Origin: Vicinamibacteria bacterium
Lineage (GTDB): Bacteria; Acidobacteriota; Vicinamibacteria; Vicinamibacterales; 2-12-FULL-66-21
Reading direction: 5' to 3'
NCBI GenBank assembly: GCA_025937075.1
Contig: JAICSD010000268.1
Coordinates: forward strand, 1-6,355
DNA length: 6,355 bases
Shown here: positions 1 to 6,355 of the stretch, piece after piece
Numbering within the stretch: the first letter of the stretch is position 1
How the letters are laid out: every line of letters starts with the position of its first letter
Program-made: the position numbers and the translations under genes
The notes under the pieces: generated by a model
The model's input: only the letters and a program-made list of their open reading frames with translations
Databases searched by the model: none
What the model was told of the DNA's origin: nothing

Positions 1-947
1 CGGTACTCGGCCGGCGTCGTCGCGCCGATGCAGCGGATCTCGCCGCGCGAGAGCGCCGGCTTGAGGATGTTCGCGGCGTCGAGCGAGCCTTCCGCGGATC
101 CCGCGCCGACGAGCGTGTGCAGCTCGTCGATGAAGACGATGATGTTCGGGTTCTCGGTCAGCTCCTTCATGATCGCCTTGAGGCGCTCTTCGAACTGACC
201 GCGGTACTTGGTGCCCGCCACGATGAGCGAAATATCCAGCGCCAGAATGCGCTTATCGGCGAGGAAGTGCGGGACGTCGCCGTAGACGATCTTCTGCGCG
301 AGCCCCTCGACGATGGCCGTCTTGCCGACGCCCGGTTCGCCGATGAGCACCGCGTTGTTCTTGGTCCGGCGGCACAGGACCTGCTGAACTCGCTCGAGCT
401 CCGTATGCCGGCCAACCAGCGGGTCGAGCTGGCTTTTCATGGCCGCTTCGGTCAAGTCCCTCGAGAACTCGGCCAGGAGCGGCGTCTCCTTCACGCGGGT
501 GAGCGTAGTCTTTTCGTTGAGGAGCGCGACGATGTCCTCGCGGACCGTGTTGAGCCGCATCCCCTTCTCCATGAGGATGGTGGCGGCCACGGACCGCTCC
601 TCGCGGAGGATGCCCAGCAGCAGGTGCTCGGTCCCGATGTAGTTGTGCAGCAGCCGGTCCGCCTCTTCGGCAGCGAACTGCAGCACGCGCTTCGTTTCGG
701 CGCTGAAGGGAATCTCGACCGATGTCGAGACCTTCTCGCGGAAGACGGTGCGGCCTTCGATTTCCTTGCGAATGCTTTCGAGAGAGAGATGAGACCGCGC
801 GAAAATCCGACTCGTCAGCCCCTTGCCCTCGCGAATCAGTCCCAGGAGGAGATGCTCGGTTTCAATCGAAATGCTTCCGAGCTGGGAAGCTTCGTAGCGC
901 GCGAAGAACAACACGCGCCGGGCTCGTTCCGTGTAGCGTTCGAACAT
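1..947 (-). CDS. clpC: ATP-dependent Clp protease ATP-binding subunit ClpC, N-terminal part (cut by left edge)
   Basis: The reverse complement from ATG at 945-947 reads without a stop to the left edge, giving 315 codons of a protein that normally has about 800. Residues 1-145 form the double Clp N-domain, with the repeated TEHLLLG motif at about 30-36 and 106-112. The first AAA+ module follows: VGR box at 178-180, Walker A GEPGVGKT at 203-210, aromatic pore loop KYRG at 247-250, and Walker B IIVFIDE at 269-275. ClpC is a cytoplasmic hexameric unfoldase that feeds substrates to ClpP. The C-terminal half (middle domain, second AAA+ module, ClpP-binding loop) lies outside, so ClpC is preferred over ClpA or ClpB on N-domain style and the linker. 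The start is supported by an AGGA six bases upstream and by a promoter at 1002-1030, so the gene is probably transcribed on its own. Confidence 0.95.
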
Positions 948-1729: not shown

Positions 1730-2134
1730 CTACTTCGATGGGGCCGCGCTGGTCCTGACCTGGACGCTGGCGGCGTGCTTCTTGTCCCCCATGTCGTGGT
1801 AGCGGACCGTGACGGTGTCGCCCACGTGCACGAAGTCGGTGATCTGGGTGGCCTTCTTCTCGCCCTTCATCTCGGCCGTCTTGTGGCTGGCGCCGCGCGC
1901 CTGCACGTTCGTCTCGTTGTCGACGGCGAACGTCATGTCGCCCGACTTGGCCTTGACGGTCAGCGAATCCCCGGTAACGGCCGACACGGTGCCGTTCGCG
2001 GTCATCGTCTTGGACGACGACTTGCCGGTGTCGGTCTTCTCGGCCGGCTTCGCCGTCGGCTGGGTGGCCTGGGCGAACGCCGGGATCGCGCTCAGGAGCA
2101 GGGCCCCGACGAACACTGTTACTACCCGTCTCAT
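1730..2134 (-). CDS. Small exported protein of unknown function, DUF5666-like
   Basis: The gene encodes 134 residues. The N-terminus (MRRVVTVFVGALLLSAIPAFA) has two arginines, a hydrophobic stretch and an AFA|Q site, a typical signal peptide with cleavage after about residue 21. A low-complexity linker rich in Thr, Lys, Pro and Ser follows (22-45). A compact beta-rich domain then begins NGTVSAVTGDSLTVKAKSGD and ends VGDTVTVRYHDMGDKKHAASVQV. The pattern 'G-V-x-x-V-x-x-x-S-L-T-V' with a later 'V-G-D-x-V-x-V-x-Y' resembles DUF5666-type small beta-barrel modules; this is recall, not a search. The mature protein probably sits in the periplasm. There is a very strong ribosome site, a hairpin terminator, and it stops at TAG. 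Its proximity to lolD says little about function, since there is no lipobox cysteine. Confidence 0.85.
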   Translation of the reverse strand: MRRVVTVFVGALLLSAIPAFAQATQPTAKPAEKTDTGKSSSKTMTANGTVSAVTGDSLTVKAKSGDMTFAVDNETNVQARGASHKTAEMKGEKKATQITDFVHVGDTVTVRYHDMGDKKHAASVQVRTSAAPSK

Positions 2135-2205: not shown

Positions 2206-2883
2206 TCACGAAATTTCGCGCAGCTTGCCGTCTTCCAGCCGCAGGACGCGGTCGCAGGCCGCGGCCAGCCGCGGATTATGGGTCGCGATGATGGATGTGA
2301 GGCCGCGTTCACGGTGCATCTCGCGCAGCAGCTCGTGCAGCGACCCGGCGGTGTGTTCGTCGAGATCGCCGGTCGGCTCATCCGCGAGCAGGACGGAGGG
2401 CTCCATCACGAGCGCGCGCGCGATCGCCACCCGCTGCTGTTCACCGCCTGACAGCATGCCCGGCTTGTGGACGAGGCGATCGGCCAAGCCGACGCGATCC
2501 AGCAGCAGACGTGCCCGCGATTCACGCTCGTCGGCCGGCCGCCGGCCGATGCGCATCGGCATGCCCGCGTTCTCGAGCGCGCTGAACTCCGGCATCAGGT
2601 GATGGAACTGAAAGACGAACCCGACGTGGCGGTTCCGGAACGCGACGAGATCCGCCGGGCGCATCGACGACACGTCGGCGTCGCCGATGCGGATCGTGCC
2701 CGCGTCGATCGTATCCAGGCCGCCGAGCACGTGCAGCAGCGTGCTCTTGCCGACGCCTGACGCGCCGACAACCGCGACCATCTCGCCCTTCGCCGCGGAG
2801 AACGAGAGCTGACGCAGGACCGCGAGCGTCGCCGTGCCCACGACGTAGCTCTTGTCGATGTCGGTGACTTCAATGAAGGGCAT
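2206..2883 (-). CDS. lolD: Lipoprotein-releasing ABC transporter ATP-binding protein LolD
   Basis: The gene encodes 225 residues, the family's usual length, with every ABC ATPase motif intact: Walker A GASGVGKS at 40-47, Q-loop glutamine at 92 in FVFQFHHLMPEFSALEN, signature LSGGEQQR at 144-151, Walker B VLLADEP with catalytic glutamate 169, the D-loop, and H-loop histidine 202. The FQFHHLMPEFSALEN stretch is typical of LolD rather than the related FtsE or MacB. LolD sits on the cytoplasmic face of the inner membrane and powers the release of lipoproteins towards the outer membrane. The partner permease gene lies just upstream. No Shine-Dalgarno sequence is visible before the ATG, unusual for this window, and a palindromic element occupies most of the 242-base gap to lolC. 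It ends at TGA. Confidence 0.93.
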   Translation of the reverse strand: MPFIEVTDIDKSYVVGTATLAVLRQLSFSAAKGEMVAVVGASGVGKSTLLHVLGGLDTIDAGTIRIGDADVSSMRPADLVAFRNRHVGFVFQFHHLMPEFSALENAGMPMRIGRRPADERESRARLLLDRVGLADRLVHKPGMLSGGEQQRVAIARALVMEPSVLLADEPTGDLDEHTAGSLHELLREMHRERGLTSIIATHNPRLAAACDRVLRLEDGKLREIS

Positions 2884-3125: not shown

Positions 3126-4355
3126 CTACTGATAGCGCAGCGCCTGCGCCGGATCGAGCTTCGACGCCTGGCGCGACGGGTAGATCGTCGCGAGAAAGCA
3201 AATGAGAATCGCCGAGGCGATCACCGCGAGGAAATCCTGCGGCAGCAGCGTGAACGGCACGTACGAAATCTGATAGACGTCGATCGGGACGTGGATCAGG
3301 CGGTAGCGATCGAGGATGTAAATGATGATCACGCCCCCGAGTGCGCCCGCACCCGTCCCCACCAGCCCGATGATCAGTCCCTGCAGCATGAAGATCCGGC
3401 GGATGCTCGCCGCGGAGCTGCCCATCGTCTTCAGGATGGCGATGTCGCGGCTCTTCTCCATGACGAGCAGCACGAGCGACGCAATGATGTTCAGCGCGGC
3501 CACCATCACGATGAGGCCAATCGTGATCGAGATCGCCATCTTCTCCAGCCAGAGCGCCGAAAAGAGCGACTTGTTCATGTCGGCCCAGTCCTGCGTCATG
3601 TACTCGGCGCCGAGCGTCTCGGGGATCGAATCGGCGACGGCGCGGGCGGCGAACATGTCGTCGAGCCGCAGTTGAATGAAGCCGGGACGATCCTGTCCGG
3701 TCAGGCGTTCGGCGACCGGCAGCGACGTCAGTCCGTATTCGCTGTCGAATTCGTACAGACCGAGGCTGAACGTGCCGACGACCTTGAAGTCGCGGCGGCG
3801 CGTCAGCGGTCCCATCGGGGTCAGCGTCGTCTCGGAGCTGATCACCTTGACCGCGTCTCCGACGTTGACACCGAGGCTTTCCGCAACATCCTTGCCGAGG
3901 ATGATGCCGTCCAGCTGATCCTCGGCGGGCTGGACGGCTTCGAGCGTTCCGGATCGCATGGCGCGCTGGATATCCGTCACCGTCGGCTCGAGCACCGGGT
4001 CGATGCCTTTGACCGTGATGAATGCATCGCCTCGTCCGCTCGAGACGAGCGCCTTGCCCAGCACGCCGGGCGCAGCGCCGATGACGTGCGGCAGCTTGCG
4101 CAGCTTGTCGATCTCCGCGTGATAGTCCCTGATCCCCTCACCGGTCTTGAACACGTAGACATGCGCGGAGGACCCGACGATGCGGTCGCGGAGCTCGCCC
4201 TGGAGGCCCGTCATCAGAGCGAGCGCGATCAGGAGCGCCATCACGCCGACCGTGACGCCGAGCACGGAGATGAGCGAGATGAGCGAGATGAACGCCTGCT
4301 TGCGCGGCGCCAGCAGATAGCGGAAAGCGACGAAGGCCTCGAACGGCAGATCCAT
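3126..4355 (-). CDS. lolC: LolC/LolE-type lipoprotein-releasing permease
   Basis: The gene encodes 409 residues, about the usual 400-415. It begins [15 protein letters not shown] and ends DPAQALRYQ, both characteristic of the LolC/E family. Membrane segment 1 spans about 22-47. A large periplasmic MacB-type domain covers 50-265, and three further membrane segments lie at about 273-298, 321-348 and 373-393 (FtsX domain). The cytoplasmic loop EKSRDIAILKTMGSS at 300-314 is the coupling helix that contacts LolD. The protein extracts outer-membrane lipoproteins from the inner membrane. Only one permease gene is seen; in organisms with a single LolC/E protein it is thought to act as a homodimer. 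The start overlaps the lysS stop by one base (TGATG), which points to translational coupling. It ends at TAG. Confidence 0.93.
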   Translation of the reverse strand: MDLPFEAFVAFRYLLAPRKQAFISLISLISVLGVTVGVMALLIALALMTGLQGELRDRIVGSSAHVYVFKTGEGIRDYHAEIDKLRKLPHVIGAAPGVLGKALVSSGRGDAFITVKGIDPVLEPTVTDIQRAMRSGTLEAVQPAEDQLDGIILGKDVAESLGVNVGDAVKVISSETTLTPMGPLTRRRDFKVVGTFSLGLYEFDSEYGLTSLPVAERLTGQDRPGFIQLRLDDMFAARAVADSIPETLGAEYMTQDWADMNKSLFSALWLEKMAISITIGLIVMVAALNIIASLVLLVMEKSRDIAILKTMGSSAASIRRIFMLQGLIIGLVGTGAGALGGVIIIYILDRYRLIHVPIDVYQISYVPFTLLPQDFLAVIASAILICFLATIYPSRQASKLDPAQALRYQ

Positions 4356-5866
4356 CACGCGCGCGGCCGCATCAGCGGGAACAGGATGACGTCGCGGATC
4401 GACGGACTGTCCGTGAGCAGCATCACGAGGCGATCGATCCCGACGCCTTCGCCCGCTGTGGGCGGCAGCCCGTACTCGAGCGCGCGGACGTAGTCTTCGT
4501 CCATCGCGTGCGCTTCCTGGTCCCCCTCGGCGCGCACGGCGATCTGCGCTTCGAAGCGGCGGCGCTGCTCGGCGGGATCGTTCAGCTCGCTGAACGCGTT
4601 GGCGACCTCGAAGCCGCCGATGTACAGCTCGAAGCGTTCGACCGTCTCCGGGTCGTCCGCGCGCTGCTTCGACAACGGCGAGACTTCCGTCGGAAAGTCG
4701 TAGACGAACGTCGGCTGGATCAACGAGTCCTCGGTGAGGCGCTCGAAGATCTCCGTGACAATCTTGCCGACGCCCCAGGACGGGTGCAGCTCGAGGCCGA
4801 GCTGACGCGCGATGGCGGCCGCCGGCTCGCGCGATCGGAGATCGCCGGGCGGCACCGGGGTTCGCAGCCGTTCGGACGCGGCCTCCCGCGCGCCGTCGCG
4901 CAGCGAGATGCGCCGATACGGCGGCGCGAGCGAGATGTCGTGCTCGCCAAACCGGACGCGATCGGTCCCGATCGCCTCGCGCGCGACGCCGGCGATCATC
5001 TCCTCGGTCATCTGCATCAGCTCGCGGTACTCGCTGAACGCCTGATAGAACTAGAGCATCGTGAACTCGGGGTTGTGCTGGGTCGAGATCCCCTCGTTCC
5101 GGAAGTTCCGGTTGATCTCGTAGACGCGCTCGAGGCCGCCGACGACCAGCCGCTTCAAGTACAGCTCGGGCGCGATGCGCAGGAACAGCTGCATGTCGAG
5201 CGTGTTGTGGTGCGTGACGAACGGGCGCGCGAGCGCGCCGCCGGCGAGCGGCTGCATCATCGGCGTCTCGACCTCGAGATACCCGCGGGCGTTCAAAAAC
5301 GTGCGCACCGCCGCCAGCACGCGGCTGCGGATCTCGAAAACCCGCCGCGAATCCGGATTCACGATCAGATCGAGATAGCGCTGGCGATACCGGATCTCGA
5401 CGTCCTGCAGGCCGTGCCACTTCTCCGGCAGCGGGATGAAGCACTTCGCCAGGAACTCCAGCTTCGATGCCCAGATCGTCAGCTCGTTCGTCTTCGTCCG
5501 GAACAAATGCCCTTCGAGCCCGACGTAGTCGCCGAAATCCAGCAGCTTGAAGATCGCGAATTCGCGTTCGCTGAGCGAGTCCTTGCGGATGTACACCTGA
5601 ATCCGCGCGCGTCCGTCCGAGATGACGAGGAAGTTGGCCTTGCCGAAGCTTCGAATCGCGATGATCCGGCCCGCCGTCCGCGTCTGCACGCGCTCGGCGT
5701 CCAGCGCTTCCCCTGTCTTGGCGGCGTGCGCATCCACGAGCGCCGCCACCGTCTCCGTGCGCTCGAACGCGTGCGGGTAGACGTCGACGCCGAGCTGCTG
5801 CAGCTCCTCGAAGTTGGCGCGTCGCTGCCGGAGCTGATCGGATTCCTTGAGATGCTCTTCCATCAT
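4355..5866 (-). CDS. lysS: Lysyl-tRNA synthetase (class II), interrupted by in-frame TAG at codon 272
   Basis: The frame is 503 codons from ATG 5864-5866 to TGA 4355-4357, the normal length of bacterial LysRS, which charges tRNA-Lys in the cytoplasm. The OB-fold anticodon-binding domain lies at about 64-140. Motif 1 is around 178-203 ([15 protein letters not shown] then [10 protein letters not shown]), motif 2 is [19 protein letters not shown] at 253-271, and motif 3 is [18 protein letters not shown] at 466-483. Codon 272 is TAG where the family has glutamate (FTMLEFYQAY); after it the same frame continues [11 protein letters not shown] and is conserved to the end. Nothing is lost or shifted, so a single T-for-G change explains it. 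As read, translation gives a 271-residue fragment lacking most of the catalytic domain. The ribosome site is weak, and two ATGs in tandem (5864 and 5861) could serve. Confidence 0.93.
5051..5053 (-). other. In-frame amber codon replacing the conserved motif 2 glutamate of lysS
   Basis: The plus strand has CTA here, read TAG on the coding strand. CTC (GAG, Glu) would restore the family consensus FTMLEFYQA. The neighbouring codons on both sides are conserved and in frame, so only one base, plus-strand position 5053, is aberrant. Confidence 0.9.
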
Positions 5867-5983: not shown

Positions 5984-6355
5984 CTACTCTCTTCCCAAAC
6001 TTTTCCTCACCGCATCGAGCACGCCATTGATGAAGGGCACCGGCTCTTCCCCGCTGAAGGTGCGCGCCAGCTCGAGCGCTTCGTTGATGACGACCTTCGC
6101 GGGCGTCCTCGGCTCCGACAGCAACTCGTAGATCGCGAGCCGCAGCACCAGCCTGTCGATCACCACCATCCGCTCGACACGCCAGTTGTGCGCGTGCCGC
6201 GCGATGAGCGCATCCGCCTCGCCGACGCGCTCGATCGTGCCGCGCAGCAGCGCATCCGCGAAGCGCCGCGACTCGTCCGGCACGTCCGCCACATCGTCTC
6301 GATTCGCCCAGTAGGTGACGATGGCCTCGTGCGCGCCGACGCGGCCGACCTCCCA
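5984..6355 (-). CDS. nusB: Transcription antitermination factor NusB, C-terminal part (cut by right edge)
   Basis: The frame runs open from the right edge to TAG at 5984-5986 and shows the last 123 residues of a protein that usually has about 140-160. The visible sequence begins WEVGRVGAHEAIVTYWANR. It includes the family hallmark NWRVERMVVIDRLVLRLAIYELL, then VVINEALELARTFSGEE, FINGVLDAVRKSL and a short tail. NusB is an all-helical protein that, with NusE (S10), binds boxA RNA and prevents premature termination in rRNA operons. An in-frame GTG at 6290-6292 is internal, since conserved family sequence continues upstream of it; the true start lies outside. The gene is 117 bases upstream of lysS in the same direction. 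Confidence 0.93.
   Translation of the reverse strand, partial: WEVGRVGAHEAIVTYWANRDDVADVPDESRRFADALLRGTIERVGEADALIARHAHNWRVERMVVIDRLVLRLAIYELLSEPRTPAKVVINEALELARTFSGEEPVPFINGVLDAVRKSLGRE

Follow-up and report, generated by a model that had tools for sequence, protein, structure and literature searches.

We found that the lysS gene (class II lysyl-tRNA synthetase, LysRS) in a 6,355-nucleotide contig of a Vicinamibacteria bacterium (the whole stretch of DNA that was analysed, hereafter the window) is interrupted by one in-frame TAG codon at the position of an invariant glutamate, and this TAG is very probably a one-base consensus error rather than new biology. A single wrong base, introduced by sequencing, library preparation or assembly into a short metagenome contig, would account for it, and the living organism, an uncultured Vicinamibacterales-like member of the Acidobacteriota, would most likely have an ordinary glutamate codon and a normal LysRS. 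A base-level error in a metagenome assembly would show as reads that disagree with the consensus; here we infer from sequence comparison that the base is wrong. The window shares with such errors one isolated base, a singleton truncated protein, an essential gene and no other decay; for these features, together with the orthologous locus, we favour base-calling or assembly error among the three explanations that an earlier note on this DNA had offered.

An amber codon at the motif 2 glutamate

The window carries seven genes on the minus strand, namely nusB, lysS, a lolC/E-like permease gene, a lolD-like ATPase gene, a gene for a small protein, a RidA-like gene and the start of clpC (Table 1). 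Re-reading the sequence bore out the observation that the 503-codon lysS frame, which runs from an ATG at 5866 to a TGA at 4355, is open except for a TAG at codon 272 (plus-strand positions 5053..5051). When all seven genes were read in frame, no internal stop was found in any of the other window genes. The TAG is one base from GAG, the codon of most relatives. Such closeness to a stop is not rare in itself, as 399 of the 1836 sense codons in the window differ from a stop by a single base; the case stands out for which gene and which residue are affected.

Table 1. Features of the window, with positions in plus-strand numbering.
Feature	Position	Strand	Remarks
clpC, N-terminal part, runs off contig	3..947	-	0 private residues in 263 invariant columns
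Small protein, stop TAG	1730-2134	-	below-cut-off DUF5666 match
lolD-like ABC ATPase, stop TGA	2206..2883	-	PF00005
lolC/E-like permease, stop TAG	3126..4355	-	FtsX and MacB_PCD
lysS, class II lysyl-tRNA synthetase	4355..5866	-	503 codons + TGA; PF01336 and PF00152
lysS codon 277, TTC (Phe)	5036..5038	-	Tyr in 120/120 listed homologues
In-frame TAG, lysS codon 272, invariant motif 2 glutamate	5051..5053	-	
nusB, 5' end off contig, stop TAG	5984..6355	-	PF01029

The product read through the stop has both domains of a class II LysRS, tRNA-synt_2 and the anticodon-binding OB domain, and the tRNA-synt_2 profile (PF00152) is matched almost without gaps, its positions 2-117 lying upstream of the stop and 120-307 downstream. 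The closest listed homologues are 92% identical at 100% query coverage, and close homologues with a name are labelled Vicinamibacterales or Acidobacteria. Whole-length homology, motif 2 context and an orthologous housekeeping locus are shared with LysS/LysU enzymes; the difference is that the window has TAG where these have the invariant motif 2 glutamate, and this in the present contig only. Column 272 is Glu in 120/120 listed homologues (the best 120 of 8000 scored), and a motif search in which position 272 was left free (145 loci; 5 duplicate loci dropped) gave 99 matches with GAG in 78 and GAA in 21, so that the conservation claimed for this glutamate holds in both sets. Its proposed equivalence to Glu278 of E. 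coli LysU also holds in the numbering of PDB chain 1e1o_A (504 residues), in which residue 278 aligns with window residue 272 and is, we presume, a lysine-pocket contact. A protein ending at residue 271 would be without half of motif 2 and without motif 3, and from the anatomy of class II synthetases it could hardly be an active enzyme. Since residue 272 is invariant and the truncated product would lack these parts, this copy of lysS could hardly sustain the organism.

Gene order and constraint around lysS

Among 193 genomes of the class, the best full-length match was in the genome G047, whose LysRS is 84% identical. In that genome (locus L203) the order nusB-lysS-lolC-lolD-clpC is identical and on one strand, indicating that the window lysS is the orthologue and not a spare copy. 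RidA-like and DUF5666-like genes also lie near clpC of G047 (L123). A decayed paralogue was considered and is unsupported, the gene order being kept. As a side observation, the start of the small protein resembles a signal peptide by eye, and its relatives lie near clpC in L122 and L123.

We then counted private residues, that is, window residues departing from columns invariant among relatives, after selecting loci on identity and coverage and keeping one copy of each protein sequence. In lysS there was 1 in 203 invariant columns (31 relatives), namely the stop itself, in agreement with the earlier statement that no other lysS codon shows decay. For the neighbours, the counts were 0 of 263 in clpC (30 relatives), 1 of 104 in lolC (25 relatives), 4 of 107 in lolD (12 relatives) and 0 of 21 in nusB (22 relatives). 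At the lysS columns that are at least 97% conserved in the 120 listed homologues, the window differs at 3 of 297 (272, 277 and 447); the other listed homologues have a mean of 1.14 differences there, gaps counted, and 22/120 have 3 or more. As judged from these alignments, lysS is under normal constraint and not decaying.

The Phe277 codon lies 15 bases from the TAG. A local cluster of errors, with Tyr277Phe as a second one, was considered and dropped: TTC is present at this codon in 4/99 motif matches (L004, L005, L106 and L110), so Phe277 is best taken as natural variation. A high overall error rate in the contig is likewise unsupported, since clpC is clean. That the contig is otherwise so clean is at the same time a point against error as the source of the TAG.

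Other lysyl-tRNA synthetases in relatives

A real and recent nonsense mutation could be tolerated if the organism had another LysRS, either class I (lysK) or a second lysS, as the earlier note had suggested. We consider this unlikely. The 12 near genomes (G037-G048) comprise the seven best LysRS matches and are not all complete. Each had one lysS orthologue, which lies in two pieces in G038 and G046 and is truncated by the end of its contig in G041 and G048, and none showed a second lysS or a strong lysK: the remaining lysS matches were at E 8.6e-18 or weaker, which is the level of other class II synthetases. A class I enzyme is present in the class, with a strong lysK match in 1/193 genomes, G137 (277.8 bits to PF01921; L202 1021..3609, minus strand, G137:C121). 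Although 168/193 genomes gave some match to PF01921 and 49 passed the family cut-off, only that of G137 was counted as lysK; none of the other listed matches (to E 1.0e-4) exceeds 33.4 bits or extends over more than about 107 of the 360 profile positions. The best lysS match in G137 (E 2.2e-14) is no stronger than other class II synthetases give, and lysS has likely been replaced by lysK there, unless contamination or an incomplete genome is responsible. The relatives thus lend no support to a second LysRS, and lysS itself is unrelaxed elsewhere along the gene.

Singleton product, expected errors and broken lysS genes

In a protein search that scored 7997 candidates, the truncated protein had a single member, 100% identical to the window's and listed with one contig of 6355 bases, so that the window appears to be an entire contig. 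No truncated twin from another assembly was found among the best 120 of 944 matches, the other 119 being at most 88% identical, in a database clustered at 90% identity, so that closer members may sit inside clusters. A short contig with a singleton truncated protein would also fit a low-coverage genome in which the template captured was real but rare or damaged, for example a copy made during library preparation or PCR, or DNA from an inviable cell. We give this reading little credence, as such alleles, if natural, should reach only very low frequencies in a population, and it shades into that of an error.

For a consensus error, the expected frequency can be put in numbers. Of the 16524 single-base changes possible in the window's 1836 sense codons, 450 create a stop, which at an assumed 1e-4 errors per base amounts to 0.015 stops per window arising by error; many would therefore turn up if thousands of windows were scanned.

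Broken lysS genes were also found in the relatives. In no fewer than five of the 193 class genomes (G038, G046, G063, G093 and G188), lysS is divided over two frames within one contig. The break removes roughly 8 to 80 residues, except in G063, where the pieces overlap slightly, and in all five (L181, L182, L205, L206 and L208) it falls after residue 333. These splits are frameshifts or deletions and not nonsense changes; that they are errors is presumed and unproven, and their cause may be assembly error or something regional. They count in favour of error in so far as broken lysS genes occur in such data, but do not show that the base in the window is one. No internal stop was found in lysS of relatives among the matches listed (193 class genomes, to about E 1e-165), and in 40 genomes chosen for weak or cut lysS matches the one flagged stop (G102) lay outside the aligned residues. 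That the listed relatives yielded no isolated stop comparable to this one is a second point against error. Stops in clpC of relatives were tried as a base rate and discarded: in each of the six flagged rows listed, the stop lay just ahead of the start codon, a stretch taken in only because the query started three codons early.

TAG as a stop codon

The TAG might be read as sense, or serve in regulation, if an amber-reading tRNA inserted an amino acid at codon 272. The conservation of the frame downstream of the TAG to its normal end is what such read-through would give, and an in-frame TAG in a conserved gene is common to this case and to amber recoding systems (pyrrolysine; TAG as Gln in phages). 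The window, however, uses TAG as a stop and has only one internal TAG in its seven genes, so that the repeated internal TAG expected under recoding is not seen there. As previously noted, nusB, lolC and the gene at 1730 all terminate in TAG. We compared the first two with relatives at least 55% identical whose alignment ended at most 4 residues from the window C-terminus (37 of 98 matches for lolC and 12 of 38 for nusB). The lolC TAG position is a stop in 37/37 of these (15 TGA, 14 TAA, 8 TAG), and the nusB TAG position in 8/12, with the stop of the remaining four 4 to 8 codons further on. This strengthens the argument, made before from TAG as a terminator, against a genome-wide change of code.

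The decoding machinery of the relatives points the same way. Release factor RF1 was above cut-off in 10/12 near genomes; G039 and G041 gave only weaker matches to the RF1 profile (254.2 and 251.2 bits), which we took for RF2. No PylS was over cut-off in the 193 class genomes (weak matches in 164/193; 1/14 control genomes was over cut-off with the same profile). In the relative G047, in which 49 tRNA matches were found, ARAGORN called 48 and missed one weak match, and none of the 48 called had a CUA anticodon. As far as these relatives can tell, the lack of PylS over cut-off and of a called CUA tRNA also sets the case apart from amber recoding. According to PMC8629427, every bacterial code change known until then reassigned UGA; its own screen inferred a sense meaning for 290 bacterial stop codons, these being candidates, with contamination as one source of error.

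From the lolC and nusB stops and, in relatives, from RF1 and the lack of PylS over cut-off and of a called CUA tRNA, we judge a changed code or suppressor very unlikely, and read-through or suppression as put forward in the earlier note hardly credible. The more particular case of a strain with a natural amber suppressor tRNA on which its sole LysRS depended, lysine charging being tied to read-through, seems to us extremely improbable. Finally, a split LysRS would require residues 1-271 to assemble with a second polypeptide begun anew at ATG 284 or 286. The ATG-started ORF of 220 residues downstream is in its favour, but neither polypeptide would contain residues 272-283 with their invariant motif 2 glutamate, and no truncated twin besides the window's own is among the best 120 of 944 matches; we regard it as extremely improbable.

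Implications

The preferred reading, a consensus error in an otherwise normal lysS, carries a caution: when very many contigs are read, even a small consensus error rate will leave some short contig with a lone stop in an essential gene. If the TAG were real, the organism would have another LysRS or would read amber as sense, and both would be notable.
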